From: Branchiostoma floridae
Taxonomy: Eukaryota > Chordata > Leptocardii > Amphioxiformes > Branchiostomatidae
DNA: 64,000 nt
Reading direction: 5' to 3'
Assembly (NCBI RefSeq): GCF_000003815.2
Contig: NC_049980.1
Location: 13,208,020 to 13,272,019 of the forward strand
The notes beneath the pieces were generated by a model. It was not told the origin of the DNA and did not search any database. It saw nothing but the letters and a program-made list of their open reading frames with translations. Positions 40,750 through 63,510 of the stretch are shown here, one piece after another (the stretch's first letter is position 1; every line of letters begins with the position of its first letter). The position numbers and the translations under genes are program-made.

Positions 40750-43700
40750 TTACAGCAGTCTTCTATACCCAAAATGCAGGATGATAGGCACAGAGGCGAA
40801 AAGACCACCGAGGTAGAAGATCAAACACAGTCTATCCAGAACGAGTGCCAGCCGTTCCCAGTCGCTCTCTCCTTCATCACGGTCATCACTTGGCCCATCT
40901 TTCTTCCAGCCATCCAAGCTCTGCCTTAGGGCCTCTAGACTCTGCTGGGTGCTTCTCATGACCGTCTTCAGGCCTTTTAACACGGTAGCGACGTCGGCTT
41001 CTGGACTGCCCTGTGAATTGCCAGTGTCCTGGGTAATACCGATGTCGTCCCCATCGAGAACGATTCTGCTGTTGACCAACAGGATGTCCTTGTCCTCTTT
41101 TGGAACCCTGTAGTTGGCAACCGGCTAAATGATTGATTCATTAAAAGCACAACATGGGTTGTGCACTTGGGCCCTGTGTTATTTACATGCACATCGAGGG
41201 AAGTTCGTAAATATAAAGCTAAATTAATGTTCTACCATACAAGGCAGCATGGGTCGTAATAGATATCATGGACAACGTATCTACTTATCTTTATCTGATT
41301 TACCTACCTATATCTCTATTAGAATTCATATATTTGATTGTTTGCTAGTTTGAACTTTTATCTGTTCATGAAAAATATAAATCGGTCTGCTGACCACTTT
41401 TCATTGAAGTCATGAGTGAACAGAAAGATACAAGACTACATAACATGATCAGCACTTACATGAAAACACAAAGAAAGTTGGCTTAAGTTCACACATTTGG
41501 GTCGCTATCAATATCTATATATCTATATCAATATCAATATCTATCCATATATAGATATAGATATCTTATGTTTCATATATATTCATGTATCTATACGCAC
41601 CTTCTCATGTCACCGAGTAGTACCAGTCGTGCGCAGCATCCCAGGAAAAAGACTTTTGTACACTGAGACATTTCAGTCTCTCGCTGAGACAGTCTTACGA
41701 TCCAAGTCGTCACCAGCATGAAGACACTCATCATGACGATGGCCACAATATTCACTATACCTGCAAAAGAATTAGGCAGATATGCCATGTAAGACATTAC
41801 GAAATCGCGTGCAATTAGAATTAAAGATTAGAAATCAAAGATCTCAGAACTNNNNNNNNNNNNNNNNNNNNNNNNNNNNNNNNNNNNNNNNNNNNNNNNN
41901 NNNNNNNNNNNNNNNNNNNNNNNNNNNNNNNNNNNNNNNNNNNNNNNNNNNGGAAAAGGACTTGCTTATTCAGTAGGAAACGGAAGACGGTAAATAAGAT
42001 ACATATTCTGGAGCCTTTCTGGACCCTATGACCTACTTCTTGTCAGGGTTCCCTAAGTCGATCAGCTTGTTAGCACGTGGAAATCAAATAACACTGACCA
42101 CACAAGCAAACAGACAGACAGACACACGGAAAGTAAAGCCTCCGTCAGTACATGGAGGTAATTAATCTAAATTAGACATTTAAATTTCCACAATGAATCT
42201 CTCTGAATCGGTTCTAAGTTACGCTCTTATAAGAAGTAGTCTGACTTACCAATGAATGGGATATTTCCAGATCGCGGTAGGAAGTCTGTGATGACCACGA
42301 GGTTGACGAACATAGACAGGAGGATGGTCATGGCGTACCCGAGCCGTGCCCCACCGTCCGCAGGGAGGAAGAACGTCAGGCACATCAGCAGCGACAGGAC
42401 CATGAACGGGGTAACAGTCGTGCACATGTGATAGGTCGGGTTTCTCCGGAGGTGCAGGTTAAGACAGGCCTGCAACGATGCAGTAAGAGAACTTCAGAAA
42501 GACCACAAAAAAACATGAGTGTGTAATAAACTGGGATGGGGCCAAGGTGATGGACAGAGGGGACAACAGGACAAACACTCGTTGGATTAAACAGGCTGCA
42601 TGGATAACTAGAAAGGCCGACATTTGCTTGGGTGCAAATACAGCATATTTCAGCCATACCCATTCCCACGCAACATTGGACTGTTCCAAGTCACCCCTGC
42701 GCAAAAATTCAAAATTTTAACTGTAAGTTATCCCCAAAAGAGAAATAATATTGTGAATTGATTCCAGGTCAAAACAGAGCTTGTCCAATATGCCCCGGGC
42801 CCATATGGAAGAATATAATCTTCTACAGGAGCGCCTAGGCATAACTGATTGGTTTTTAGAATTGCGGCAACTCCTATTTTTCCGAGAGTGAAAAAAGAAC
42901 GCATCTTCCATTCAGAAAATTTTCATCATGAAATTACATGACGCCATTCAACAATTTCCACTTCGATAACTAGGTCTAAGTACCGTCATAATCTCTTTGT
43001 GATGTGGGTACATTTATTATTGCAATGAACTTTTTTTAAGCAAGTAGGGCATACGTTTTAATAATTGTCAGGTGCAGGTACTGTGTAGTAGGAGTGTTGT
43101 TTTTTTTTTTTCAAGCTAAAAACTTCAATCTTCTTCTTGTTTTGTATAAGTCATTACATAAACGGAGACGTCTCGAAATTTTACAAGAATTTTACCACTC
43201 TGTCGCTTCATTTCTTTTCTGAAAGATCCCAGGACCAACAAGTTAATTTGATTTTGCTTTATCTATATATTTCATTTTCCTTCGAATTCTTTGTTAAGTA
43301 TATGCCCCTGCATACCACTGTTAAATTGTTTTACTTTGTATGCAATCAGCCATCGGACGTAATCTTGTCTGAGTGTTATAATTTCCTGCTCGTAGCGTGC
43401 GAGACCTGGAGGATAGGTGTTTCTACTTTGTTCGGGGGTTTCTTTTCGGAGGTCAGTGGTGATACTCTGGTACTGAGAGTGTTTTATTGGGCTCAAACTC
43501 TGGCAGTTTAAAGTTACTTACAATTTGAATGTACAAAGTTTACGTCAAAAAAGAACAACAACAACACTAGAAGTACCTACATTTGTTCGGGAAAAAATAC
43601 ATGCATTCTCGCCACTGTCAAACTTACGTATCAAAACTAAACGCAAGCCGTCCAATTTTCCCTGTCCAAATCTGCCGAAAATGATTGATAGTGCTATGCG

Positions 43701-44360
43701 GAATGTTGGTAAATTCATCGACACTAACGTTCAATGCACGCGTACCGTCCGCTACCGCTCAAATGACCCTGTCTGAACTCCAAATCCTCGCAAACTACAA
43801 TTTCAAACCCGGCAAAGGGGACCATATGGCCACTGTAAGGCTGTAATATGCATCTGTTTGTGTATATACGGGATTGCAAGGCCCCGCTTATGAATATTAA
43901 CTAGCATTCGCCTTTCTCGTCGCTGATTGGCTGGCGTCCATAAAGTAATTATCTCTCGCTCTCCCCAGACCGCCGGCACCTGGCACGTGTGGGCTCTGGG
44001 GTCACTGGAGTTCACGGCAGGAAGCCGAAAGAAAACCAATTTCCCCTCAGAAAAGCGCTGAAATTAAGCATTTTAAAGTAGTTTATGCCCAAAATTTTAC
44101 TTGGATCATTTTACCAACTATCTAATGCCTATCTACACCAAATTTAAGGTCATTCCATTGTAATTCAAGGGAACAGGGGGCCACAATATACCGTTTTGGT
44201 CAAAACATGACCTTTAAACTTCAATAAAATCATTTTAGAGGCAGATATGAAAAAAATGAGAAAACAGCACCTCGGTATTGACCCACTCTACTCTTGTGCC
44301 AAATTTCAGGTCATTCGGTCACGGAACGACGGAGATGAATCGCTTTGAAGATTTGACAGG

Positions 44361-44419
<59 letters not shown>

Positions 44420-47400
44420 AACATTACGAATACAATATATTTCACCATACCATATATGGTATGGCTGAAATATAATAAAATCCACTCCAGTTATGAACCA
44501 ATGACGGGGGGGAGGGGATAGAATATAGACTCAGTCACGTTTGTTACTGCCTTCCCAAGAGGCTAATTAGAACATGTTTAGTTTAGCGTATTGTAGTTGG
44601 TAAAAAGTGTTACAGTAGGTTTCTAGTAATACTAAATAAAGTTGTGGTTTACAAAAAATATCACTGTTTTCTTTTTCTTAGCATCATTTGAATTTGGATC
44701 AGAGTTTGTCCTGGGACAGGTCGCAATCTGTACTGGTAGAATCGCTAATTGTTCTAGGACAGACTCCGATCGTGATCTGTCCTAGGACAATCGCCTATTG
44801 TCCTGAATCGCAATCTCTACTGTGACATATACATTATATGTATATACATATATAGTAAATGTATGTCAGAAAATGTACACTCTGGAAACTTAACGGTTCA
44901 ATACATGTAACTCGTAGACCTGTGTGCTTTAACATCTGCATTCCCTTACGCCAACCGGCATGCAAGCAGGCGACATGACATGAGCAAACGGAATTGTGAA
45001 TATCAAAATCACCTGGTTCCCACTGGCCTCCAGACTGACCGATACGCTCCACTCTCCTCCTGGCACCTCCCGAGTACCGCTGCAGTTCATCACATCCTCG
45101 GTAGAGTTCTCTTCTCGACAACGAATCTCGTCACCAGATCGGAACTTTCCTCCGACACATATCGGGCACGTCATGTTGTCAAACGGGAAGAAGTATTGAT
45201 CGAGATTACAGGTGGTCACGAGCAGATTTTCTGAGTGACAACAGAAAAAGGTATTACCTACAGATGCATGTGGATTTCTTTCAACGTCATTGGACCACCT
45301 TCGCAATTGGAAGTGCGGCATGATTGGTCAAGACTGGGCACATGACTAAACGTACCAATCAAACCGCATTTCCACGGTGGCATACATACTGGTCCTCCTA
45401 GCTGTGTGTGTCGCGTTGTGAAGCATTCAGGAGGATCTGAATATTGCAGCCCGGTCAACAAACTAAGAGTGCAGAGAACAACCAGAATAATACGGGAAAT
45501 AATACGGATTAGCGTCAAGCTAATGAGAAATGTCAGCTAGCATCAACTCATTTTCCCACCGGACTCTTGTGAGGGCTATATAAGGATACAAATTGAATAC
45601 GCCTCCAAGAGTCACCATGGCTATCTTATAAGATCAATTGTGTAATGAAATGTCTTATTTTCAGCCGTACCTTTTCTTGTCCAGTTTTTCGGAATCGATT
45701 GCGTCAGATGCTGCGTTACTATCTGCTTTTGATTCAGTCTGCTGTCCAAATTACTTATGTCCAACTGTCTATACCTGTTCATACATGTACTGAGATGTTC
45801 CAAGAAGAACGACTGACGTGCTCTTACCTAAGATCCAGAGAACCTCTCCGTCAGCTTTGACGACCACGTTAACTTCGGGAAAGCCTCTGTAGTCAGGATT
45901 GGCGCTTCAATGACAGAGTAAAACCAAAAGATTAATTATTAGAGAATACATCAGTATGCCAAACATCATTTGAAGATATCACGAAGAAATATTGATTAAT
46001 GTAGTCCAGTCATTACCAATAACAAAAGTGCCATCAAACTCTGCTCTCCATGTACGAAGGTTTTGTTTTCGGTGAGTCTGTTAACGTTAGTGTGTTCGAT
46101 TATGTGTCCGTAGTAATGTGAATAAAGTAGAGTGAAAAAAATTGAAGGGTAGTGTTGTCATCTCAGACATGCCGGAAGCTGAGGTTGAATGTGAAGTCAA
46201 AACGGTAACTCCAGACTGGTTTCCATGTACTAAACAAAAATGATGGGCCAAAGGTCCCAGAAAGGTTTCAGGATAGGTAGATCTGATTATTTATCACATT
46301 CATTTAGCTCTGAAAAGTATTTAAAATAAATAGCGTGATAACTCAGAAAGTTGTGATAATAGATGTTGGGTTTAATGTCTCATTAATTCACCAAATTGAG
46401 GGGTTAAAGTTGCTATCACATTAATTCTCCATATAAGAATCCTTGATCTCTCTATGGAGAATTAATGTGATAAGGGGGTTGCTATCACATTAATTCTCCA
46501 TATAAGAATCCTGGATCTCTATATGGAGAATTAATGTGATAAGGGGGTTGCTATCACATTAATTCTCCAGAAACCTGGATCTCTCTATGGAGAATTAATG
46601 TGATAAGGGGGTTTCTATCACATTAATTCTCCATATAAGAATTCTGGATCTTTCTATGGAGAATTAATGTGATAAAGGGGTTGCTATCACATTAATTCTC
46701 CATATAAGAATCCTGGATCTCTCTATGGAGAATTAATGTGATAAAGGGGTTGCTATCACATTAATTCTCCAGTAGAAGATTTCTGGATCTCTCTATGGAG
46801 AATTAATGTGATAAAGGGGTTGCTATCACATTAATTCTCCAGTAGAAGAATCCTGGATCTCTCTATGGAGAATTAATGTGATAAGGGGGTTGCTATCACA
46901 TTAATTCTCCAGTAGAAGATTGAAAATCCTTTGGCGAAAACATGAGACAAAGTTTTTACTTATCGCTATCACATATTTTTTAATTATCACGCTTTTCATG
47001 AGAAATACTTTTTTGAGATAAAAGAATGAGATAAATAGCTTCAGCTGGATAGGTTATCTCATATCCTGTCTTCAGTTTCCTTATATCTGTTGCCTTGTAA
47101 GAGTCAGTGGTAAAATGCATTAGCTAGAATCAGTGAGAAAACCGCAACAATGAATGAATAAAAAAATACAAATATTTTCAAGTTTTACATTGTATTTACT
47201 ACGTACTTCATTAACAGCTGGATGGTCGGTCTCCATACTTTGTTCGCGTCCAGCTCTATAAGCTGCAGGTCACCATAAGATGACGGCGTCCAGGCGAGCC
47301 GGGGGTCGTACCAATGCTGGTAAAATAAGCAGTACGAGGTCGTTACTTAGACAAATAATGTGGAGATTTCGGCAGTTGTTATTTTCTTTTTTAACAAACA

Positions 47401-50400
47401 GGTGTATCAGGGTGTTTAGAAAATCACCTGTAAGGTTGTGAAAGTTTACTTGTATTGTCTGCGACACAAGTTCTTTGTTTGGATGGCTGTAGTAAATATG
47501 AAGTCGAACATGGGTTATGGGGGGTGACACACAGATATACATGTATAGGACCACATTTTAAATCGTTTATCCTTACAAAGTACTGATCAGAACAAAATCA
47601 GATCGGAGCCTTACCAAGTAAAAGCTGGAGTCCGTAGTGATGGCCGGTATTGTTTCGTCCTGTACGGAGCAGTAGACAAGAGAATTAGAAGTAACATCGA
47701 CATCTGTATTTGTATGGTCAGTATAAACGCCCTTCAGTGAAACACACCAGCTTCTGTATCTATATATCTATGTTGCCGGTATATCATTACATTGGACGAC
47801 CTGCCATACCTAACCCATGCAACGCAGTCATGTATGCAAATCTATTCTTGTATGCAAATACGTTATTGTATATGCAAATACATGAATGAATCTGCATATA
47901 TGAATACATTTGCATAAATTTGGTATGCTCACCTCATCCTGATACAAAGGATGGTTTGACTTACAACATTGACAATACTGCTGACCAGGCCCTCAGCCGT
48001 AATGATAACGTCGCCTGTCGGGGGAAGAGAGGGCTTGACCAGCGCGACTTTCTCTTCCAGAAGCAGCGCTCTCTCATCAACTGGACGGATAAACGTATAA
48101 CAATATTAGAGAAAGACTGGGAACTACATCAGATACATTTTATCTTTGAATAAAAAGAAATAATGTTCCAACAAATTCCTAATATTCTTTATTGTCTTAT
48201 GAATGAATTGAGAGTTGCATAGCCACCGCCCCACTCCCACCCCAATGATGATGATAGCAAGAAATCGAAGATTTCATACTTCCGTGAAATGTTAGACTTT
48301 TGGGGAATTCCTTACTGCCATAGCTATCACTGGTATCAGCGATCCTTGTCTTTCCTTCTTCCCTTTAATTAATCCCAGCTATCTACTTCCCATAAAGTAT
48401 CATTCGTCGTCCCACATTTATGGATGTCGGCAGTCCATGTACTTCCAGGAAAGGGTGTTGGCCAGTAATTTTGCAGTACTTAAAATGCTGCTGGGGGAGA
48501 GGGGGTAATCTCCCACATACCAAAATTCGTACAATCCGTCATAAGGATCTTGACCTTTAAGGCGAACACACAAACACAGCCAAAACAGTACCCCCGCCGG
48601 AGGAGAACCTCCTTCCCGGAGGTATTAAAGATAAGATAGATGTGCAACCTTTACAAGTTGGTACTGCGGTGTCCCACGTGGCATCTCTTTGGCACTCTGA
48701 AATGACGGCTCCCTCCAGAATGAAGCCAGACTCGCAGGTGTAGTTCACCTTTTCTCCCGGCCAGTAGTGCGGCTTGACCGGACTGGGACGAACTCGCCGA
48801 GGTATGCCGCGATCTTTGCAAACAAGACCTTGTGGGACAAGGAATATACAACACGTTTATGAATTATAACGTCAAATCTTTGTATCGTTGTTGATCCTTA
48901 GAAGCTGTAAGAGCATGTCACTAAGCAACCGAGTTTCTGTTGAAGTCTGAGTTGCTTTGCAAGTACCACTCTTGAACTCTTTGCTGTATCATACACTCCG
49001 TGGATTAAACACATGCATGTAAACTCGATACGTTGAAAGATTCTCGCCAATCATATAAACTACTCGCTGTACAGCAAGATTCCCGCGATTCATACACATT
49101 GAACTCACACTGCGTATTCGGTCCCCAGAAAGACTTCCGAAAATCATACGCTAAACACGAGCACAAACTGTAAATTCGTTCCGTTCAAACACGATTCCAA
49201 AGGAATCGGAACACGAGTGGATACTGATGATTCCGAAAGATTCACGAAAGCCGAACAGCGATTCCCGAACACCCGAACAACGAGTTTTTATCTTACCACT
49301 ACAAGGTTGGATGTCGCAGTAGCCCCATTCACCGCCTTCCCCCGCGTAACACCACGGTCTCTCCGCTCCATCCGGGTTACGACAGTAGTTGTGCTCGAGA
49401 TTCGCCCATGGATATTTCTGTAGTTCGTACGTTCTGTTACCCCAGCCAATACAGGGTTCGCCGCTCACGGTGGCGCTTATGGTTCCCCTGTAGTTCTCAC
49501 CGTTACCATAGTAACACTCTGGTAAAGTAAGGAAATATAGTGAGAATCAGTGAGATGAAAGAAATAGTACGAAGATCTCACGAATTCTTGAAATGATAGA
49601 TTTTCTCGTATATCTTGTTGTTCAATGATCATGGCAGTTGATTAACATTACACGTGTTCATTCATCACTTTCTGTCATTCTACTGTAAACAGGATGACAT
49701 CTTTATATCACATGAAAATATGTTTATGTGAAAACACGGACAGACCGAAAACAAGCAACATCTCCCTTTGAATTAGTAGCTTCATTGACCCACCCTCTAT
49801 GACCTTCGAAAGTCTGTCATTCCGATAAACGACTAGTTCTTCCACCTCTGAACTCTAACTTTCTGTCACTCCGGTAAATCTGACCCTTGCAGTGACACCG
49901 TCTTCCAACTCCCTTCGTGTCACTCACATGGACACAAACATCCAGGCGAAGTAACATCCAGGCATGCCGAAAACAAACCGGTCAGGTGTCTTCAAGTTGA
50001 CATACACTACTCGTAAAATACCATGACAACTGGTTAACCACATATCTTTCAAAAGACACCCGTGGTAGTAATATGTACCTTTATTGGCATTTCCCTTCCA
50101 GCAGTTTTCATAAGGCAAGTTGTCACAGGGAATTAGTTCTAGCACAGATGCATTTAATTCCTCTCGGCACCTATCGCGGATCTCTATGCACCACGAGCGG
50201 CAGGGCAGCACACGCCGACCGCCGGAACAGCCCGGGAAGAAGCTGTAGCACATGAAGTACCAGCCCTGCAGTTGGAATGGAAATAGATGTCAATATACGC
50301 ATTCCTTAGTTTGTAATGTCTGCCGCCATTTTGTTTTCTAATGTGGCACCAATTGTGTTTCTAAGTCAATTGACTACAATAACTAGTTTACAAAATATGC

Positions 50401-53400
50401 ACAAACCCTTATCACGGGATTTCTATAGCTGAGCTCTTTCACACGCAGTTGAGGCTAAATCTCAACCCTTCCGTTTCAGGTATTGCCGGAATCATGACTA
50501 TGCAAAGCATACACGTCACTTCTTCGCAGTTATTATAACGATAGTCTGGCGCACATACTTACTTTAGGCCTGTTGGACGGTCGGCATCGGCTAACTACTA
50601 CTAAACTAGGAAAAAAAATTTATATGATTTTTATCTGTATTCAAACTGTATTACGTACCTGTAGGTGGCAGGGATATTGTGTTAACAAATTAGCGCTTTG
50701 AAATATCATATTCAGCTCCCTCGATTGCTGCAGTTCTGACAAGTTCCGATGGTTGAACAGGTTGGGAAACACCGTTGGCCACGGCTGCACATTGATCGGT
50801 GGACAAAATTCAAATTCCTCTGGGATCGGTTGGCACTCTGGGAAAATAAAGGTATCATCATGGTGATGTGTATTGTCTGTGATTGATTTTTCAGGATTTT
50901 TCGGTAACTTGTAGATTTATGAATCATCTGTCATCATGATTGTAAAAATAACGCTTTCATTCTGTACATGTCTGGGATGAGGCTGAAATGCTCTCTGACG
51001 ACCATAATATTACGACCATGATAATTACTAGAAGTGATACCCGCAGTAATTTGTCCACGTAATACTAGTATGCCAGTGTCACGTTTCCAAACCGGCGCTC
51101 AGCAGTTTACGGGAACGAAAAGTATGATTTATATACAAGACAACAAAAGCTAGAAAAATGAAGAAATGAGTCCTGTTGACCATGTATATACCCTGTGTAT
51201 ATTTCATGAGATGAGTTTATATTCCGAACCCCCGAATTGCCTGACCAGGCCTTGGTTATTAGTGTTTACATCTCATAATACGGATTGCCCGACATCAGGT
51301 ACTACATCCAAGAGTTTGACTAAATCACATTTCCAATCCGACACCAGTCTTATATAAATGGCAACAAAATACACAATACACTAACAACTGTGATGAATAT
51401 GAGTATGATTTGAGTATATTTCTTGATTCCGACAAAGTGCCGTAGCCAAGTTTTGAAATGTGACACGAGAATAACTAGTCCCCTGGGAGGTAGTGTTGGC
51501 TTTAGGGCACCTGCACAGCGATACTACTGGATGCACAACCTATGACGTACAGGGACATGTTTTGCAGTGCACAAAAGAGTAGAGTCTGATACTCACCACA
51601 GTTTTGCTCATCGCTTCTATCCCAGCAGTCAGTTTTGCCGTCGCAGAGACTATTTACCAAGACACATCTGGCTCCGTCCGCACATAGCCAGCTCCCTTCT
51701 TCACATCTCACAGGTTCTGTAAAATGATACACACAGAAAACAACATCAGTATTGAAATCAGAAACGGGTCGGGCAAGGCTCAGCTACATTCACAAAACTG
51801 AAAAAGATTTGGAAAGACAAACACATAGGTCTTGCAACAAAAATTCGGATCACAATGTGTGTACTGTTTACAGTTATGTATGGCGCTGAAGCCTGGCAAC
51901 TCACTTCTAAACAGGAAAAAAAATGGACGCTGCAGACCAGAGATGGCTATGTGTAATCTTAAGATCAGATGCCAACAACATATTAGTAATGACACAGGCA
52001 TAAACCGCACCGGCCATCCCAGACTATCTACACTCGTACAGTACAGGATGCACCTGGGGGGGGGGGGGTTGCTTTGACAGCGAAAATCTCTTTTCCATTC
52101 CTTGCGAAACTTAAATCCCAGCAGCTGAAATAAATGGATTTATACTAGTATACGTAACATTGGCAGTCTTTTTATTTGGCCTCGTAGACATATGGAGGTA
52201 GAGTGATAGTGTATATATACGTGTTTTAAATTTGTACATCTTAAAGCGTGAATGACATCATAAGTGCCTGTTGGACGAGATGTTTTCTAGCCATATGAAT
52301 GAAGTGGGAAGTTCATTACACCAAGAAAAATAACTCATCGACGTCTTCGTGTGGTGTGCTCACAAGGAGATCACAAAATATCGATCAGGGCAATGTTTTA
52401 GTGTAATAAAGGCTGTCTGACAGACACGCTTATGTTGATAGTTTCTACCATTCTACTGTTAGAACTCGTGTTTTTAATAAAGTCGTATTTTGGATTTGCT
52501 ACGGGCCGGAGTTTATAGATATACAAAAGGGACCATAAACAAACACACTTCACATTTTTGGTATATTAAAAACAGTGCATCCCGACGGTCTGTATGTTTG
52601 AGACAAAAACAAGTTCCCAGATTGTCAAACTGCAGTTTGATATTCCCTGCTATTCTTGAGTCAGTGATCCTAAAAGCTTGTTGACAAAAGCAATACAGAG
52701 AGGCAAAGAATAAAAGAAAGGAAGAATGTTACACATTAGACACTCATGTTGCCGCTATCTACGATCACCGCCATTCACAAGTAGCATGCGGAGGAAGGGA
52801 GGGCGGTTTGGAGAGGCCGGTTCATCTCAGGCTAATACAGTAATAGGGGCGTTTACAAGTCGTCAGCAATCATCAATTATCGTCGTGCCAAATTTCCCAT
52901 TATAGTTAAATTCGGCTTTTATTTGCCAAATCAGTACTATACAAGTCGAGTTCTCTAGACTAAATCTATTGTCTGTGACGAATTTGAAAAAGAACTAGAT
53001 GCCATTGTTTAACTCAATGGGAAACTTGTTCAAAGTCAGTGATGCTATGTTTGATTGATAACTATTGCATGTCTAACTCAATATACCGAGGTAGGAGGCT
53101 GATTTTTTTCTGTGATAACCTTAACAGCGTTCATACACAAACACACCTGTGCAGCGCTCACGCCCACGTGAGCTACAGCTAACATCGTGGGTTGCCATGG
53201 ATACCTCTATTCTTAAACAGGGACGTTGACGACAACTTTGATGCTATTGGTTAGTGTCGTATGCAAAACCCTCTCCCTTGCTGTGGATAGGATCGTGCCA
53301 GAAAGTGAGATTGTCCAGAACAGCTCCGAGACCTGAGGACAACTGACACAGTCCGGTCAACACGCCGCACAGGTCGACACATTCCAAATCTTCTCCAGCG

Positions 53401-56400
53401 ACTCTTCAGTCCTGGTGAAACAGTTGAACTGTTGACGCCACACATTGTACCACAGTGTATGCTATTTTCATCCTCAGTCCAGAAACTTCGAATTCGAAGC
53501 AATGGTGAGTTCTAATTCATTTCTAATGTAGTGAGTGGCAAGATCTTTACTAGTATACTGTAAACCTGAAAGGGTTTGTGCTCTTTTGCTCTCTACTTGT
53601 ACAAAGGTGTTGCCGTTGTTTGTAATAAAAATGAGATCACTTCATCCAGTGTCCAGCTTTAAACAGAGTTTTTCTAACCTAAACATAACGATCTGAGACC
53701 AGCTAAAACTGACCTGTACGAATCGACTGCTACTAGGTGCAGATAGTAATTTTGAATCTTATCGTCTTTTTCTGTCTCGTTAATTCCTCTTTATATCTAG
53801 CTTTTATCGAGTTCAGGCTACAGTCGTTCTCTGGACATTTATAACTAATTTTGGTTTGTTGATAACTGATTCTGGCCTACTCTGATGTCGGTATTACCCA
53901 ATAAGAAGGGAGGTCTGGTAAAAGAAATTTTTAAGGTCGAACCTCTGTATACTAGCACTTGAAGTTGTATGAAACATTACAATTTACTTCTTAGAGGTCC
54001 TGAATTTTGTTTTCAGATACAAATCACTCTACAACAATTAAAACTTTCCTGAGTTCTTATCATGATGTATCACGATCGCGTGCATATACTAGCGTGTTGC
54101 ATATAGTACTGTACGTATTCCAGTAGTTAGCGGCCCTGTTTCTGAAAATAGAAGCCGTGAGTTCGATTCCGGCTGTGTCGCCCAACCGACATGCACGCTA
54201 CCGGAAAGAGTTGCGGTCCTTAGAACGGGACGTTAAGCCGCGGTCCACTGTTCATTGTACTTGTCCATGAGAGCTAGGGTAATTTCCCCGGTACCTGTAC
54301 ATAGCATCTGTCCTCTCTGTCGTGACCAGTGGAAGACTAGCTCTTCACTGAGCTAAAACTGGATCGAGATGATCACTTTCCTTTTTTCTGGAGGGATAAA
54401 TGTACAGAACTCCAGAAGTATCTCTACCTTTGCCAACACAGATTTATTTAAAGGAGAAGCATACCTAGATGGCAGTAACTTGGTGAAAGGCTGTTAGAAT
54501 CTGTAGCATGACACTAAACTTGTTGAGTTACACAGTCGCCGTACACTAAGTAAAAGAGTAATTACATCAGTGTACGTGCAACTTTCAATGAACACATTAT
54601 GCGGTCTACACAAAGTTGTTTTCTTGTATTTTTGTGACTTATGTAGCTTTGTGCGTTACGTTACCAAGTCACGTTGGGCGCAGGTTCTCGGAGGCGTAGA
54701 AAACGAAGTGTATCATACTTGTTGCGGAAAAGTAATGTCGGGAGAACGATTACTGATTGTCGAATCGGGTATGGACAAAGTTGTCTTTCAACCCCAGCAA
54801 CAAGGGAAATCTGTATGTCCTGATTTGGCCCTAGTGCAATCCGAGACTGTAAGCCAATGCCCCGTGGATCGATCATACTTAGCCTATGGAAATGTATACC
54901 ATGCCTGACATGTTGTGACCTGCAAACAGGATGCTACTATATATATGTGTGTGTGCGTGTATTTATTCCTCAACATCAGGGAATACATTGTCGACCTGAT
55001 CTTATCTGCCTTCTAGAAAAGACTTATGATGCTTCAAGAACATATATTTTTCTTTACTTTAGCTCATATCAATACGTCGAATACGATCATATGATATAAC
55101 TGGTCTTCATGCTGATATTATTCCAGATGGGGAGGCAATTCCTATTTTTTCTGGTGCTCTTGGCAATACCAGCACTGACAACGCAAAGTAAGGTCGGATT
55201 CCTATAAACTTTAAACTGCATTTTCATACTAGATTTATGAGCTTAGGTGAATAAATTGTCTCCTTTCATGTTTCTTGCTCTTGTCTTCCTCCTTCTCAAA
55301 TATTGAATAAAAAATCCTTTACTAAGTCTAATGCCACACCGTCTTAATTATATGGATGACATCTCTGGAAACCTCAAAACTAAAGCGCGCGGGCGGAAAA
55401 AAATCCAGCAAAAGTTTCTGCTGCTAAATAAACCACAGGACTAAACATCCAGTCCATTCTTTCCCAGGCTTGGGTTGTCTTATGTTCACCTCAAGTAACA
55501 CTGTAAACTTGAACAATTGTCGCCATTTCAATTATGTTTATATTGCTAGTCTTGTTTAAAGATGGAACAAGGGCGTCGCGGCCCCTTGTGCCCTTTTACC
55601 CCGGAGAGCAGATCCTCTGGCAAGCATGAAATTCTGATTGACTAGAGATGCTACAGTGTAACACGTGGCCACAGTTTTTTTTTTTTTTGTTGTTGTTGTT
55701 GTTGAGAACAGGCGAAAATCAATGCGCACGCGGATGTAATCCATAAAATCAATTCAGTGTGGCCTAGCCTTGTCAGGGTTTCATTTTAATGCCAACTGAA
55801 ATGAAATGAAATTTACTATTCTCAGTACCAAAGTGTTCCTGTTAAATGATAGCTGAAAATTGGCATCCTCCTAACGCCCGGTCCCCAACGGCATTAGCCT
55901 GTGGGGCCCTGCTATCTCATGCCCTATCAGTGGTTATTATGATTGTCGCCACAAACCAGCTGTCAACCAATCAGAGAATAGGCTTTTCTTGGGCTTTTTG
56001 TTGTCGCAAGCTGTCTCGCAAAGGCCGCTGGGAAGCTATCAGCCAATCATGTTACGTATTACATGGCTCCATCCTCCTACGCCCGATCCCCAACGGCTGA
56101 CTGCCCATATAAGGGCAAAGCTCATTAATATTTATAGGTAGGGCGCTCCCTAACTGGTCTGAGTGCACAAGGTAGCAGAGGTAAACACAAGGAGGTTTGA
56201 CACGACTTTGGTTCCTCTGCGTAGGAGAATGAAAATTGGTAGCAGCATGGACCCTGGAACGTGTTACACTTGTATTGCAGTGTGCGCTGATGGGTACCAT
56301 GAGTCTGACGGGAGGTGCTTCTATATCTCCGACGTGGAGAGAAGCTTTGGCGACGCGATAGTCGACTGTCAGAGCAGAGGTGGAGAGTTGGCTGTGATCG

Positions 56401-59400
56401 ATACCGAGGAAGACAGAGATGCAGCAATGGCAGGAGTCAATAGAGTTGTGCCGTGAGTTTCCTCATGTCTTTTTTTTTACTACTCTGGTATAAACGTAAG
56501 TGTTTAAGTATCAAGACGAAAGAAAGAAACACATGCATTGAGAAGAAATGATATAGTGCAAACATGCATTGAGTTTGTGATGTGAATTTCTCAAATCTCC
56601 TGAATTGACGACATAACAGCTACTGCAGTTGAAAAAAAAGTATCAGTCATGTACCGATCGCTATCACGTCTGTTTTATTTTACAGATACTGGATCAGCCG
56701 GGCAAGTGAAGACTTGGATTACATCAGCGATGCTGAGTTGAGGACAAAATTTACTTCTATAGCACTTAAAGTATGTTATCATGCTTCAAATTTCCGCTAG
56801 CCGACGTCGGTACATCAAACTGATTAAAACTGTGTTTCTTTTCAGGGACTTGAACTGTTACATCTGTGAAGCCCCAAGTAAGTCGGCATTTTGTTATAGG
56901 AACGAACAAAGAAGTATTGTGCGTGCATAAGTATGTATGTAATTTATGCTTTCCAGCAGTCAATAACGGTTTGTTTTCTACAGTGGAACCAACCACAGTA
57001 AGTGAAACACACATCTCGTGTTTGTCATGTTCCCAACACCGTAACCTAAAATCATTTATACCGAAGAGGTCATGTGACTGAAACAAAAAGATTGAGATGT
57101 CTTTCTTGCTGTGACCCTTGAGCGGTCATTGAGCAATCGCTGTGCCCGTTGCAACTGAGCGCTCTTTTGGCTTTGTTGCTCACCACGCTCGTTGTGAGCT
57201 CATTTGGCGCTCGCCGCGCTCGCTGGCCGCTCTCTTGGCGCTCTCTCGGACATGGACGAAGTGAGAATCGACTAATCCGGTAAAAAGCTAATATTTGGAT
57301 CAACTTTAACTTCTGAGTTTTGGGAAATATGTAGGGCATAAGTGGGGTAGACGAGCACCCTAAAAAGAGTCACACCACCNNNNNNNNNNNNNNNNNNNNN
57401 NNNNNNNNNNNNNNNNNNNNNNNNNNNNNNNNNNNNNNNNNNNNNNNNNNNNNNNNNNNNNNNNNNNNNNNNNNNNNNNCAGTGGGTATTTGAAGACGGT
57501 CAGAACCTGGCGTCGCCCGGCTACAACAACTGGAGCCCCGGCGAACCGAACGATTTTCACGGTGGCGAAGACTGCGCCGTAGTTTACGATACCGGGCACG
57601 TCTGGGTTGACGTACAGTGCAGCCTCACCAGGGGATTCGTCTGTCAGTTAGGTATGTGTTTGACACTTCACATTCCTAACACTTTAAGGTGAACTAGAAC
57701 AGCTGGATTAAAATGTCAAGGACAAGCATGAAGGTTCAGTACCATGTATTGTCATTGTTGACCCAACCAACGGTTGAGCCCTAATAACGATGCCCAGTGC
57801 ACAATCATAATTTTAAGACTATAGTCATAATTGTAAGGCTATACAGTCATTTGCAGATTTTGCTGTGTGCCAGTGAGGTTGAGTAGGTTTCACTGCTGTA
57901 TCTATAATGAATTTCTATAATTAGCAACACCGCTATTTATCAACAATTCGGTGAAGCACATTGTATCAAATTTGTCTCTTTTTGTCCTAGTTTGATGGCG
58001 CAAGATTTGGACCGATACCACGGACACCGACTGCTCTAGAGCGCATACCGTCAGTGCTTTGCCGCTCGAATCATTATCATATAAGTTATTCTAATCTAAA
58101 GTTTGACCGGCGCCTGCAGTTCCAACAAAGCCACTAGGGGGGCCAAACTCAAGGGCTATCTACCACTCAAGAATCACGACCACAGCATATCCAGAACAAG
58201 ATTTATAAAAAATAGAAGTTCCGCTGCAGTAGGAAGCCTCTAGGGAGCCATTATTGAACTTGACCTTTGTTTTCCCGTTCCCTACCCACCTACCAAATAT
58301 CACCAGGATCCATGCAAGGCTTCTCGAGTTATGCTGGTGACAGACAGACAGACAGACAGCCAGACGTACAAGCCTAAAACATAACCTTGCCATTCTGACA
58401 AAGGTAATAATAAGAATTGAAGAAATCAATGGTAGAATCTGGCTTAAAATTACAGTTTTGGAGACTTTTCCTCATTTAAAGACCGGCATGGCAAACCCAT
58501 GGACAAAGTACATAAGCCAGCCAATAATGATGTATATCTGCAAGCTCAGTTTAAATGGGGAGTCTATTTGGAAATATCAATTGAAACGATTAAAAAAAGC
58601 AATAATACTACTTCATCCAACAAGACAGAATCACATTGTATCGCTCTGTAACTGAGTGATGTCCCCTTTTCAATTAATTGACGTTTATGTTCTCATTGCT
58701 AAAGACCTTGAAGATTTATTGGGGGGGGGGGGGGGGGCGGAGCAATGGAAGAGTTGCTAAGCCACAAATATACATGATTCTTAACGACTAACTAAGATCA
58801 CCGCGCTTTTGCGAAGATGCTTATTAAATCCATGTACCTGGGCCATTTGTTGGAAATGAGGTTAACTTAAGGTCAATTTTTGCCCCCCAAAACGGAGAAA
58901 TTAAGTACTTTTTCTTTATCTACAAAGACGATGCTAATTCCAGGTTATAGTCTATGGATATCGTAAAGGTTTCTCCATAAATTTCTTTCCGCGCATATAA
59001 TGGCTGCTACTAAGGAGGCTATATAGAATGTCGTCCTTGCTACTACTCAATAGCTTATGCCATGCAGCGAAGTGTGGCGAAATGACCGGTTACCCTCAAT
59101 AATTGCGAATCTCGCTGCACTTAACAATGCAAATGTTACTCAAGAAATATAAACTGCAAGCAAAAAGAAACACTTTAGTTTCAGCTTTTCAACAGCTGCT
59201 TCATCATAGTGTTTCTTAACTATTAACATATACTTACTTAATAATATTTTCTTATCTTAAGTCGAGCTCCCGCTCGAATATTAACATGATATTTGGAAAT
59301 CAATATCTGTAATCTATAAAATCTTATAGTTATATCAACGTTGAATAGACACTGTAAAAGCATAAGAAGTATTTGAAACATATAACATCGACAATGAGTA

Positions 59401-62400
59401 ACTTAGCTGCTTCTTAGATATGATATTTTGCGCTTTAGATATAGTCATGTCTTTTATAAACCTTATATGATTTAAAATGTACAAGCCCATGTCTGGTTGC
59501 TCAAGATAAAATATAAGACCTCCCTTAAGGGAAACATTACCACCATACGAAAAAAAGGATACAATGGGAACACATTTATTGAATATAAGAAATGTTATAA
59601 GATTACACATTATTCATCAGATATATATTAATGGAGCGATTGTTAGTTAGCACCAGAGATTACTTGCTTTGTCATATTGGTTAAAGGTTACATTTGCTTG
59701 TGCGCCACAGCTTGCTGCTTTTGGGGAACTTGCTTCTATCATCAATAAAAAAGTGTAGAAATAGATGGAATGTCGCATGTCATTCTTGTGTACTGTACTA
59801 ATTGATACAAGTGTTTCAACTGATATGACATTCACATGAGGGAATGGACTACCAAGTAATAGCTTTGATACATAGCACGCAAGGACTACCCCCTTCTGGT
59901 ATTGTTGGAATATGCCACTTTAATGCATGTAGATGACAACATTTTATGCAAAAATGGCAAAACTTCTTTCAGATAAATGATGAGATGTTTTTACTTGTGA
60001 CATGTGTAAGCTAGACAATACATCTCGAAAAGCTCTTAATAGTTCATTGACATATGGAGGTTGGAGCAATTTTTGGCTAATTTCTTCTAATGTATTGTCT
60101 TCAGTGGCTCTCATATAGCAGGCACTGGACAAGAAATGGGCTAAGTCGTTCTGAGACGTTTGGCCCAACTTTCTGTCAGTGTCCATAACTAGCTATAGCA
60201 TGCTACCACGGGGGACCATTTCAACCGCAAAGTTGGCACACCCTTCATGTCAGTCTGCGGTTACCAATAGCTCTTTCACTTCCTCTCACTCTACTATATT
60301 CACTACAGACACATAATACTAGTACATACATACATACATACATACATTCACTACAGACGCATAGACAAGTACACAAATGGACACACCGAAAACAAAACCT
60401 TCGCACACAAATAATACGATAACATAGAATATGCGAAGTTGTTGAAAAATGAAATATTACCTTGAGTCACAGAAGCATAGGAGGCGTTAAACCCTCGTGA
60501 ATTAGTCACATAATCGGTCGCCATCTTTACAGTTAGGATGTAACTAAATGTCTGCATGGTTGGCGGCGTATCATTGCCACAAAACACCCCTACAAAAAAA
60601 AGAAAAAGAGACAGATGTTATGGCATGAGACTAACTCTTCGATTTGTCTTTTGGCCCTAAAATTAGAAACCCCAATAATCATGGAACTTTTAAAAGATCT
60701 CTAGTCAACTAACAGTCGGGACCCAAACCGGTCCAACAACAACAAACTGTATCAAACTGTCAAAACCTAGGACCAATGCAGACAGGGAGCGCTTCCTCTA
60801 CCGAATGGCTTGCCACTGGAACACAGTTACTAAATGAACTTGCATTTTCTCTCAGCTGTATAGTTTGTAATGTACATATTATGTTATGTATGTATGTAAT
60901 GTTGTGCATGTATTTTATGTAGACCACTGGAAGAATAGCTGGCAACATAATGTTGTTAGATAAAAGTGGATCTGAATAAAGTCAAGTCAAAGTCAAGTCA
61001 AGTCAAGTATCTGCTAAGTATGAACGCATTAAACAAATATTTGATCATTAACCCCCAAATATTAGGCGATATGAATATATAGTATTCTACTCTTGACAAA
61101 ATGGCCAAAAGCTATGATCAGCCCCAACATTTGCACCTACCTAACGACGTGAAACTCCCGTCAGGCCAATCTCCATCAAACAGCTCCACCTTGTCGTACA
61201 GGCATCGCTTTTCAGACGCAGGCTGGAGCTCAAAGTCGGTGAATGATATCTCAATTGTAAACTCTGGCGCTACCTATGACATAGATGTGAACATCAGAAT
61301 TCAGTTGAAAGGTTCAACCTACTGCTAGTGGAAAATACGATCTGAGCATGCATGGATGCATGTATCAGAATATCAACATTAACACCTGATCAATAATAGA
61401 AGAAATGATGACGAAGTTGTTGATGGTGAAGATAATTATGATGATAAACATGATGGTGATGATGATGATGATGAAGTTGATGATGATGATGACAATGATG
61501 ATGATATTGAAAGGTTAATCACCAGCTAGAAAATAATTGAGATACAGAAGCAGGGTTGGTCTGAAGTAGGGTCACCAATGAAACCCAATCACGTGACAAG
61601 GGTGTGTAAATCTTACTCACAGTTACCTCCCACTTGCACTGCATCGCTGTGTCGTACGCCAGGGGGAATCCTGGACTAGCGAACCATCCACTGGCATTTG
61701 TATATCTGCTTCCGCAGTTGAACAGCCGATTTTCTGTGTTGAAGAGCAAAGTGAGATGCATTCAGTTTTGTGATGTTGTTTTTAAAAAAGTGAATTGTTT
61801 GGACGCTCATACCAATGAGAGACGACTCACACCGAGACTGGGAGTATATTCATATTTGTTTTGACCCCACTTAACTCGCACAAATGCTCAAACATGATGA
61901 AGACTTTCAAGCACGTTTTTTTAGTCGGATGTGAAATTCGTATATGTTGGTGTGATTTGGAATACGTGTACTATCAACCTAGCATTATGGCTTACAATAT
62001 CAAGCAGCAAAAGCAGAATAGCAATGTTTTCTGATTCTATACTCTATTGTCTAGCGTTAAGGTACTCAGGGGTGGTGGCTGATGAGTTTTGGGGGTATTA
62101 AGGTGTTTCAAAAATACCATTTTGATTGATGTATGGACCTTGCTTTTCTTCTGATAGTATCTTATTGGATAAAGATAATTTATGCAAAGTAGCAAGATGT
62201 CATGATGAAACAACACATTGGCGGTCGACCTAACGAATAACTCTATACAGGTCCAGGGCTTACCATCGCAGATTGATATGTCGCAAAACTTCGACTCGAT
62301 GTCCACAAATGAATCTTTCAGAACATAGCACCGCGGTCTGTCGGAGTTGAATGGGTTCCGGCAGTAGTTTTTCTCGAGATTGTATGGGTGGATTGCACTC

Positions 62401-63510
62401 TCTATAGACGTGTTCTGTGTAGAAATCAGACGTGTTTGACACATCCATACCACAATGATCTAAGGAAAAAGGCATTGGCATATCTTTTTTGGAAAGAAAA
62501 AAAGTAATTTGTTTTCACATAAACTTATGATGCTGTAATGTCAAGTTGCAATTCTTGAATATATTTGCCGTAAAATTGTTGGCAGAAAAGCTGTTGGCAG
62601 CGATAACAACAGACCAGTACTAGTGGTTCCAATTTTGGCTCCTTAGTAGCGTAGACGGAAGTAGTGTTCGCTAGTGGTACCCACAATGGTACACATTCTT
62701 ACTTCAGGGTAGACTCAGTTTGAAACATTCTACGTACTAATGTAACTTTTAAAGAAACCAACACTGGAACCTGTGACAATAAGGCAGTGAACATATTGCA
62801 TCATGTCAATTTTCTAACTTCCCTCCCACTAGTGCAACGGTTACACTCAGTAAAGAATACAACTTACAAATGGTACTGCAGTTATCCAATCCATACACTG
62901 CTGCTCCGACTCGGTGACGCTTTTAGTTCCTCTGTAATTCTGTCCCCTGCCGTAAAAACAACCTAGAGTGCACGAAAATGGTAACAATTGGTTGTGTAGC
63001 AAAACTTACAAAACATACTCTAATCTCCAAGCAGATGCCCGGCGGCATAAGATTATCGAAGCTGGCCATGGAGTATATCCGGCCAGAGGAGGTCAGCCGC
63101 CTCGCGGTAGGCGGGAATCTGCTTGGATATTATTATCTCACTGCACTTGGGGCACCAGTGCGGCACTGCGGGGTTCGTTCAAAACGTAAGACAAATCGTT
63201 CTTTATCGCTGAAATTCGTTGGGTAATCTTTCGAACCCCGCAGTGCCGCACCGGTGCCCCAGGTGCAGTGATATACAATATTTTTCTTGAGCACGGTAAC
63301 AATCCACGGTGTACAGATCATGGCAAGGTGGAAGTTAAGCGTTGCGAAATTAACTTGCCTTGGCGTTCTTTTACATTATAGCAGTCCGCATAAGGAAACG
63401 TGTCACAAGACGGGAACTGGTGCTGTGAGAAAAAGTCTCGGAGGGCGCACTTCGGGAGAACCAGAGATTCTTGCACCTCCTCACACCACGAGTAACAAGG
63501 AGGCTTGGTT
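40750..63510 (-). CDS. Mosaic Cys-loop ligand-gated ion channel with Fz-kringle-CUB-LDLa-Fz-kringle-sushi ectodomain (5' partial)
   Basis: Nineteen exons read in one continuous frame for 1002 residues: 63359-63510, 62868-62962, 62264-62459, 61621-61733, 61141-61273, 60461-60589, 51597-51716, 50659-50837, 50079-50265, 49297-49518, 48649-48828, 47965-48080, 47615-47659, 47207-47316, 45828-45904, 45013-45230, 42250-42469, 41601-41760, 40750-41107. Numbered from the window edge: Frizzled CRD C-terminus 1-50, kringle 51-147, CUB 148-272, LDLa 273-312, full ten-Cys Frizzled CRD 313-434, kringle 435-508, sushi 509-568. The channel part is 569-1002: Cys-loop CNLDQYFFPFDNMTC, M1-M2 (TFFLPADGG, LLSMFVNLV), M3 and M4 (DRLCLIFYLGG). 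Exons of 45 and 110 bases match nicotinic receptor genes. A plasma-membrane pentameric channel is expected. The 5' end is off the right edge. Confidence 0.85.
41505..41580. repeat. (TATC)n-like simple repeat
   Basis: ATATCTATAT and ATATCAATAT alternate, then invert to ATAGATATAG, just beyond the exon ending at 41601. Confidence 0.8.
41852..41951. other. Assembly gap (100 N)
   Basis: Within the channel intron 41761-42249. No coding exon is missing by phase. Confidence 1.
42610..44474 (-). repeat. ~2 kb interspersed repeat, copy B (inverted relative to copy A)
   Basis: It lies in channel intron 42470-45012. Reverse-complemented, it matches 1676-3741 end to end: the palindromic ATATTTCAGCCATACC end, the (TTTC)n tract (here GAAA at 44355-44420), the CCAAT-containing middle and the right part ending CTTTCTAGTT. 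It has a single copy of the block that is doubled in copy A. Flanking bases differ from copy A just outside these ends, which fixes the boundaries within a few bases. Confidence 0.75.
46410..46920. repeat. Palindromic minisatellite, about 7.5 units of ~69 bp
   Basis: Each unit starts TGCTATCACATTAATTCTCC and ends with its mirror GGAGAATTAATGTGATA, a stem of about 18-20 bp around a short variable loop, followed by a G-rich spacer AAGGGGGT. Unit starts are at about 46411, 46480, 46549, 46612, 46682, 46751, 46821 and 46891 (half unit). It lies in channel intron 45905-47206. Confidence 0.95.
47820..47925. promoter_or_regulatory. Cluster of ATGCAAAT-type octamers
   Basis: TATGCAAATCT, TATGCAAATAC and TATGCAAATAC are followed by the reverse form ATTTGCATAA within about 100 bases of channel intron 47660-47964. 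These match the POU-factor octamer core, though the stretch may simply be a diverged simple repeat. Confidence 0.3.
54118..54345 (+). mobile_element. tRNA-derived SINE
   Basis: TAGTTAGCGGCC (tRNA arm-like) precedes GAGTTCGATTCCGG, a good pol III B box, at about 54158. The body continues with GGGACGTTAAGCCGCGGTCC-type sequence. The 5' part looks truncated. Boundaries are approximate. Confidence 0.6.
54570..54908 (+). other. Cysteine-containing open frame, possibly galaxin-like fragment
   Basis: A 112-codon frame with NEVYHTCCGKV and, later, YGNVYHA. In another frame just beyond comes CLTCCDLQTGC. The recurring VYxxxCC spacing recalls galaxin repeats, but only two units are visible and the reading frame changes. 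It lies between the SINE and the first coding exon of the lectin gene, on the same strand. It could be a pseudo-exon. Confidence 0.25.
55127..57995 (+). CDS. Secreted single-domain C-type lectin
   Basis: Five exons, 55127-55187, 56281-56452, 56686-56770, 57483-57651 and 57991-57995, join in phases 1, 2, 0 and 1 and give 163 residues. Residues 1-20 are a signal peptide (LFFLVLLAIPALT). The rest is one long-form CTLD: CADGYHESDGRCFYIS, GGELAVI, YWIS, then EPN (mannose-type calcium site), EDC, WVDVQC and FVCQL. The last exon carries only the stop context (G|TT TGA). The N gap 57380-57479 falls in an intron. A further upstream exon ending near 53504 (ATG|GTGAGT) may be 5'UTR. The gene lies antisense within an intron of the mosaic channel gene. 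Confidence 0.85.
55332..55764. mobile_element. Diverged Harbinger-like MITE
   Basis: The left end GCCACACCGTCTTAATTA with TATGGATGACATC and the right end CATAAAATC...GTGTGGCC are inverted matches of each other and of the element at 27590-28094. Its target duplication is unclear because the left end is worn. Confidence 0.55.
55861..56150 (+). promoter_or_regulatory. Direct-repeat block with CCAAT and TATA-like motifs
   Basis: CATCCTCCTAACGCCCG and CATCCTCCTACGCCCGA lie about 205 bases apart, each followed by CCCCAACGGC. AACCAATCAG and AGCCAATCAT precede CATATAAGG and TATTTATAGG. An ATG at 56248 downstream is in frame with the CTLD exon, so an internal promoter giving a signal-less lectin form is conceivable. 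Confidence 0.3.
57380..57479. other. Assembly gap (100 N)
   Basis: A run of N immediately before the acceptor of lectin exon 57483-57651. Confidence 1.
58100..58420. repeat. Interspersed repeat with (ACAG)n tail
   Basis: A non-coding body (AGAACAAGATTTATAA, AAGTTCCGCTGCAGTAGG, ACCAAATATCACC) ends in GTGACAGACAGACAGACAG. A body with a tetranucleotide tail resembles SINE-like or mini-elements common in marine invertebrates. Only one full copy is in this window; a similar ACAG tract is at 42110. Confidence 0.5.
59944..60186 (-). other. Unassigned 80-codon open frame
   Basis: The frame contains LAHFLSSACYMRATED and YVNELLRAFRDVL, with protein-like composition. The upstream DNA continues protein-like (NFAVEMVPRGSM) but is interrupted by an in-frame stop. 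No family was recognised. It may be a broken gene, a retrocopy or part of a mobile element. It lies in the large channel intron next to the CUB exon at 60461. Confidence 0.25.
63139..63270. mobile_element. 132 bp foldback MITE
   Basis: Arms of about 39 bases, starting CACTGCACTTGGGGCACCAG and ending in the mirror GGTGCCCCAGGTGCAGTG, enclose a loop of about 54 bases. It sits in channel intron 62963-63358. Target duplication is not obvious. Confidence 0.85.

Follow-up and report, generated by a model that had tools for sequence, protein, structure and literature searches.

Does a stretch of lancelet DNA in which extracellular modules run up to an ion channel subunit encode one protein or two? 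We analysed a window of 64,000 nucleotides from Branchiostoma floridae (NC_049980.1; C2:13208020-13272019 in the contig notation used below), in which a sequence-only reading had seen Frizzled (Fz), kringle, CUB, LDLa and sushi modules fused to a nicotinic-type Cys-loop subunit. The fused frame and its predicted modules were confirmed in the genomic DNA on which our model rests. A single gene very probably encodes the ectodomain together with the Cys-loop subunit, and across the genome (513.4 Mb, 431 contigs searched) a large set of loci built alike points to an undescribed receptor family. The sequence supports a single frame, the kringle-sushi-channel order in paralogues, proportions of nonsynonymous differences (pN) below those of synonymous differences (pS) in both halves, and the loss of the acetylcholine-binding box.

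Within the window, 19 exons on the minus strand share one frame with compatible phases (Table 1). The earlier reading had their places, frame and phases right; its length of 1002 residues has to be corrected to 987 codons. It had also counted seven extracellular modules, whose types Pfam confirms in the window; the first Fz there is a second half only. Five further exons lie upstream of the window: CUB, LDLa and the first half of Fz 1 are carried by the adjoining 19.8 kb (which include 1755 Ns), and a signal-peptide-like exon lies about 1.5 kb beyond, at the far 5´ end (C2:13276123-13276030, or 68104-68011 in window numbering). This last exon encodes MLAICFSVMCGQQVTCGVLVVTAILLLMSTE and is the best candidate in the 10.8 kb scanned, with a donor of 11.1 bits on a position weight matrix that, as for every donor score given here, was not trained on lancelet genes. 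With Fz 1 completed and the CUB, LDLa and signal exons added, there are nine modules rather than seven. The full model has 24 exons in compatible phases and 1255 residues, in the predicted order SP-CUB-LDLa-Fz-Kr-CUB-LDLa-Fz-Kr-Sushi-LBD-4TM (SP, signal peptide; Kr, kringle; LBD, ligand-binding domain; 4TM, four transmembrane helices), and the signal peptide of the channel likely lies at the start of the ectodomain. Two other candidate exons were rejected: one hidden in the N gap of the intron between channel exons 6 and 7, since M2-M3 joins without a break, and a hydrophobic ATG exon at 52001-51905 as gene start, which would merely shorten the ectodomain and is antisense to what we take to be a transposon fragment, for which no Pfam match was obtained. 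Searching the window with the model by tblastn gave no second channel copy, only weak matches at E 0.8 and above.

All Pfam matches of the window model exceed the gathering score: Kringle in two stretches (1.2e-35), Neur_chan_LBD (PF02931, 7.9e-27), CUB (3.5e-24), Neur_chan_memb (PF02932, 6.5e-14), Fz (4.7e-11), Sushi (5.1e-8) and LDLa (1.4e-6). The upstream part adds CUB (2.6e-27), LDLa (2.3e-11) and Fz (7.4e-10), and Pfam lists no Ig or kinase family for the model. Having both the LBD and the four-helix domain, the window channel is a member of the Cys-loop superfamily. Its best match among solved proteins is the acetylcholine receptor alpha subunit (E 1.8e-35), followed by neuronal subunits and 5-HT3A among the best 60 of 252 distinct matches at E <=0.001.

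The one-gene proposal gains support from paralogous loci, from the shortness of their introns and from the far-5´ signal exon. In the six most similar channel loci (C4:3.96 Mb, C2:14.71, C16:11.37, C4:18.90, C2:9.61 and C2:17.52), LDLa and Fz lie upstream on the same strand without exception and CUB in five, none being detected in C4:3.96 at E 0.1; kringle and sushi adjoin the channel in five, and an N gap covers that place in C4:18.90. Three less similar loci (C19:1.37, C2:27.97 and C11:19.77) read CUB-LDLa-Fz-kringle-sushi-channel. Taken together, these nine paralogues have Fz upstream on the same strand in 9/9 and kringle then sushi in eight, the ninth being gapped, and a tenth locus, C16:2.04 (L074), has kringle, sushi and channel. 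We modelled the junction in the window and seven paralogues, leaving out C19 and C4:18.90; the scan took phase-1 donors and acceptors near the peptides only, and 8/8 means that one was present. In all eight loci the last cysteine of the sushi exon is followed by one residue and one base before the exon ends, and a phase-1 channel exon is next (8/8). The intervening introns measure 136 (C2:17.52), 172, 348, 378, 391, 432, 568 (window) and 1574 bp, and the sushi donors of the seven paralogues are GTA sites scoring 2.3-10.8 bits, the highest at C2:27.97.

The paralogues also differ among themselves. Further CUB and LDLa modules lie upstream in C2:14.71 (L016) and C16:11.37 (L020), the latter also with a further Fz and kringle, and the predicted number of modules seems to vary between members. 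At C2:9.61 (L028:3314-3788), the M1 coding piece is tandemly repeated several times between the M1 and M2 exons.

A genome census extended the comparison. It used 125 of 134 channel rows (after removal of nine that were second or incomplete parts of split exons), all 150 kringle rows from a search that scored 150 of 462 candidates, and 26 of 150 sushi rows, picked by eye from a search that scored 150 of 1484, such that the sushi numbers are a lower bound and do not serve as a control. We defined a core of M1-M2 matches with E up to 6.2e-17, the cut being placed where the ranked matches showed a gap. A kringle exon lies within 30 kb on the 5´ side, on the same strand, for 60 of the 63 core matches (window gene included), the nearest at a median of 4.3 kb; seven core matches have a kringle on the 3´ side and four on the opposite strand, and chance would give about 0.4% per locus. 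Of the three core matches lacking a 5´ kringle, C4:18.90 is gapped, and the other two have a sushi match upstream. Among the 62 other channel hits, only C2:9.61 and C2:17.52, both split-exon family members, have a 5´ kringle. By channel match the family thus comprises about 65 loci, which lie on 16 large and three small contigs, and a 5´ kringle exon was found for 62; this is not a gene count, as some loci may be uncollapsed (duplicate) haplotypes. Family fragments with no detected kringle may be present among the other hits; short candidates include C16:1676351 (74% over 38 residues) and several on C6 (15.6-15.7 Mb), C8, C18 and C259 (50-60%).

A tree built over 79 columns from 51 M1-M2 pieces (29 core, 20 other and two references) sampled 29 of the ~65 loci; in it the core rows form one clade (100/100) on a long stem, with many open forks. 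pN is below pS in 19/19 comparisons spanning kringle, sushi, Cys-loop and M1-M2, many of the pS values being saturated and the C4:18.90 kringle in the set being perhaps its first, as the second lies in a gap; the window copy has pN below pS against both C16 and C2:14.71. This pattern fits constraint on both the ectodomain and the channel. With kringle and sushi adjoining the channel on its 5´ side, in one frame, and the channels in one clade, the loci make up a fused kringle/sushi Cys-loop family that would most simply have descended from one fused ancestor.

The channel keeps much of a nicotinic acetylcholine receptor (nAChR) subunit and has lost its classical acetylcholine box. Shared with nAChR subunits are the LBD and 4TM domains (Pfam), the Cys-x13-Cys loop with FPxD (CNLDQYFFPFDNMTC, here FPFD, aligned with the nAChR loop), the 9´ Leu of M2 and the four helices; 45-bp and 110-bp channel exons also occur in nAChR genes. 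The lancelet channel differs in its nine-module ectodomain, in a loop C about 12 residues shorter, in extra cysteines (CPxC and more) and at the acetylcholine site. In an alignment of six family members, pieced together by eye, the classical aromatic-box residues and the loop-C vicinal cysteines are absent wherever a letter is present, and the window copy has S, L, K, L, A, S and C at the seven site positions. The label "nicotinic-type" therefore holds for homology and not for acetylcholine as ligand, since the binding residues are absent on alignment. Position -1´ of M2, Glu in nAChR, is Asp in 28/29 core rows and Ala in the window copy, which thus lacks the acidic residue of a cation-type channel. 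One Ala does not suffice for calling it an anion channel; judging by mutagenesis, the residue predicts weaker cation and calcium selectivity for this copy. E-[RK] is found in cation and A-[RK] in anion Cys-loop channels (Tasneem et al., PMC549065).

How might such a receptor work? Five subunits would assemble into a channel, presumably cation-type in the family, whose LBD would no longer take acetylcholine at the classical site. Because the N-terminus of the LBD points away from the membrane, the five chains of modules would crown the pore. There they could bind an extracellular partner (matrix, a neighbouring cell, a secreted scaffold or an environmental ligand), and such binding would position the channel or contribute to its gating. 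In nematodes, acetylcholine receptors are clustered from outside by LEV-10 (CUB/LDLa) and LEV-9 (sushi), and modules of LEV-10/NETO (CUB, LDLa) and LEV-9/Hig/Hasp (sushi) likewise act on ionotropic receptors externally, although as separate proteins in trans, whereas the lancelet modules are part of the predicted channel (PMC9083331). The lancelet modules may do in cis what LEV-10 and LEV-9 do in trans, which suggests built-in anchoring or partner-driven gating. GABA-B R1a has built-in N-terminal sushi modules that affect receptor location and surface stability, but it is a G protein-coupled receptor (GPCR) with two sushi domains only (PMC9083331). We put forward built-in anchoring tentatively, by analogy, and hold built-in sensing to be possible to a similar degree. 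The kinases ROR, MuSK and CAM-1, which act on acetylcholine receptors, also have Fz followed by kringle; we found no Ig or kinase in the lancelet model, which has CUB, LDLa, sushi and a channel instead, and the link to MuSK is an analogy. We have high confidence that a fused single gene in a large family, with modules that may place or help gate the channel, is the best explanation as a whole. Its boldest form, in which dozens of lineage-expanded pentamers are placed or gated through their ectodomains as a receptor-scaffold "Rosetta-stone" fusion that gave up acetylcholine binding, is less likely than not.

Besides the possible duplicate haplotypes, several observations weigh against this explanation. 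The proposed function rests on analogy, and the LDLa of LEV-10 is dispensable for clustering (PMC9083331). Such modules are freely shuffled in lancelets; amphioxus adhesion GPCRs, which are seven-helix receptors and not channels, have gained kringle, CUB, LDLa and lectin domains (PMC2246102). Whereas the other 17 donors of the window score 4.9-9.5 bits, the sushi donor (AAG|gttgca) has 0.16, a level matched or exceeded by 38% of all the GTs on that strand; the upstream donor CUB1ab is equally weak, making two of 23 donors near 0.2 bits in the 24-exon model. Readthrough past the sushi exon adds 30 residues before a stop, and the interval up to the channel contains ATTAAA (48369) and AATAAA (48193), which would also fit a transcript ending behind the sushi exon. 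The window copy may be poorly spliced, leave out the sushi exon or be decaying; such skipping would be phase-compatible, joining kringle 2 (donor 7.95 bits) to channel exon 1. Lastly, the 1574-bp intron of C2:9.61 does contain a hydrophobic signal-like exon.

One tentative alternative accepts the fusion and takes the family as environmental or immune recognition receptors, in which the ectodomain or the modified LBD would sense chemicals or microbial surfaces. The large expansion to ~65 loci and the loss of the classical transmitter site in the members aligned would fit such a sensory or recognition role about as well as built-in anchoring or gating; the module types are common in recognition proteins, and octopus chemotactile receptors offer a parallel. 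The kept module order, in contrast, argues for a fixed partner over free diversification.

Rather unlikely is a second alternative, in which the fused family is genuine but its copy in the window is decaying or weakly spliced. The two weakest donors would suit it, as would the Ala at -1´, a position occupied by Asp in the 28 other sampled core rows, but the 24 exons are open in one frame, the domains score above their cut-offs and pN stays below pS in both comparisons of this copy.

We consider it quite improbable that the locus holds two adjacent genes, one for a secreted protein of Fz, kringle, CUB, LDLa and sushi modules that stops behind the sushi exon, the other for a plain channel that has a cryptic first exon of its own. 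The weak sushi donor, the readthrough stop with the poly(A)-like signals behind it and the signal-like exon in the longest paralogue intron are what two genes might leave, and nested or alternative promoters are compatible with the sequence. The sequence-only reading had argued from a phase match without a stop at the junction. The phases are indeed compatible, but a phase-1 end is common among signal-peptide exons and extracellular modules, so the match says little, all the more beside the poorest donor of the window, and we rejected phase matching as proof of fusion. Its statement that no signal peptide lies between sushi and channel (48081-48648) was borne out: a scan of the window DNA gave two rows with a donor >=2 and one ATG, not hydrophobic, and we rejected a signal-peptide exon there. 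A hydrophobic signal-like exon is likewise absent between sushi and channel in 7/8 loci modelled (the window and six of seven paralogues), and one is found at the far 5´ end instead. While the junction is undecided from the window alone, the adjacency repeated in paralogous loci elsewhere in the genome, across introns as short as 136 and 172 bp, settles for fusion on the genomic evidence. An assembly chimaera or chance neighbours can be practically dismissed: the N gaps of the window (41852-41951 and near 57400) fall outside the interval from sushi to channel, the arrangement is found again on 16 large and three small contigs, and the sampled channels are one clade.

Table 1. Predicted exons of the fused gene within the window, from 5´ to 3´ of the gene
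Feature	Position	Strand	Basis
Fz 1, second half; GC-AG donor (CAAG|gcaagt)	63359..63510	-	exon; Fz 7.4e-10 with upstream half
Kringle 1, exon a	62868..62962	-	frame, Pfam
Kringle 1, exon b	62264..62414	-	frame, Pfam
CUB 2, exon a	61621..61733	-	frame, Pfam
CUB 2, exon b	61141..61273	-	frame, Pfam
CUB 2, exon c	60461..60589	-	frame, Pfam
LDLa 2	51597..51716	-	frame, Pfam
Fz 2, exon a	50659..50837	-	frame, Pfam
Fz 2, exon b	50079..50265	-	frame, Pfam
Kringle 2, single exon	49297..49518	-	frame, Pfam
Sushi, single exon; weak donor AAG|gttgca	48649..48828	-	frame, Pfam; homologous exon end in 7 paralogues modelled
Channel exon 1, LBD start; phase 1 in, 0 out	47965..48080	-	counterparts in 5/6 paralogues by script, sixth by eye
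Channel exon 2, 45 bp	47615..47659	-	45-bp counterpart in 6/6 paralogues scanned
Channel exon 3, 110 bp	47207..47316	-	frame
Channel exon 4	45828..45904	-	frame
Channel exon 5, Cys-loop (C-x13-C), extra CPxC cysteines, no loop-C Cys pair	45013..45230	-	frame, alignment
Channel exon 6, M1 and M2 (GGAR: Ala at -1´, 9´ Leu)	42250..42469	-	frame, alignment
Channel exon 7, M3	41601..41760	-	frame
Channel exon 8, cytoplasmic loop, M4, stop	40750..41107	-	frame, Pfam

Other features of the window deserve mention. The intron behind the second half of Fz 1 is of the GC-AG type, with an otherwise strong donor at 63359. The 8.7-kb intron between CUB 2 and LDLa 2 harbours C-type lectin-like exons on the plus strand (56163-57692); the second piece matches Lectin_C at 1.3e-6, the first has no Pfam match, and an N gap lies between them. 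About eight head-to-tail copies of a ~65-bp unit, itself an inverted repeat (GAGAATTAATGTGATAGCAACCCC...TTATCACATTAATTCTC), fill 46420-46930 in the intron between channel exons 3 and 4. Near the 3´ end of the gene, an open frame on the plus strand (39294-39776) would encode a small cysteine-rich, possibly secreted protein; no Pfam family scored above the cut-off for it.

Animal Cys-loop receptors have been described as having a stereotyped layout of an LBD and four helices (PMC549065). The claim that known subunits have no such N-terminal modules agrees with our limited literature search for animal subunits. Bacterial pentameric channels do have extra domains (PBP-I, MCP-N/Cache) between signal peptide and LBD; these domains are of other types, and the channels are prokaryotic and lack the Cys-loop cysteines (PMC549065). 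The available text of a Cys-loop survey that discarded sequence outside the two core domains does not mention the arrangement (PMC4795631), nor does that of a vertebrate nAChR study with amphioxus sequences, which dropped those grouping with 5-HT3 (PMC6354393). Our literature search, of partial coverage, found no paper describing a Cys-loop channel with such an ectodomain; the arrangement may already be present among the automatic gene models of public databases.

If our reading is true, the modules fused to these lancelet channels would be those that act in trans, as separate proteins, at the cholinergic synapses of other animals, and the expanded clade seems to break the stereotyped layout of animal Cys-loop receptors. 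The family would allow one to test directly whether physical coupling is the way in which CUB, LDLa, sushi and Fz-kringle modules act on ionotropic receptors, and it would offer a set of channels that have lost the transmitter site and whose activating input is open to experiment.
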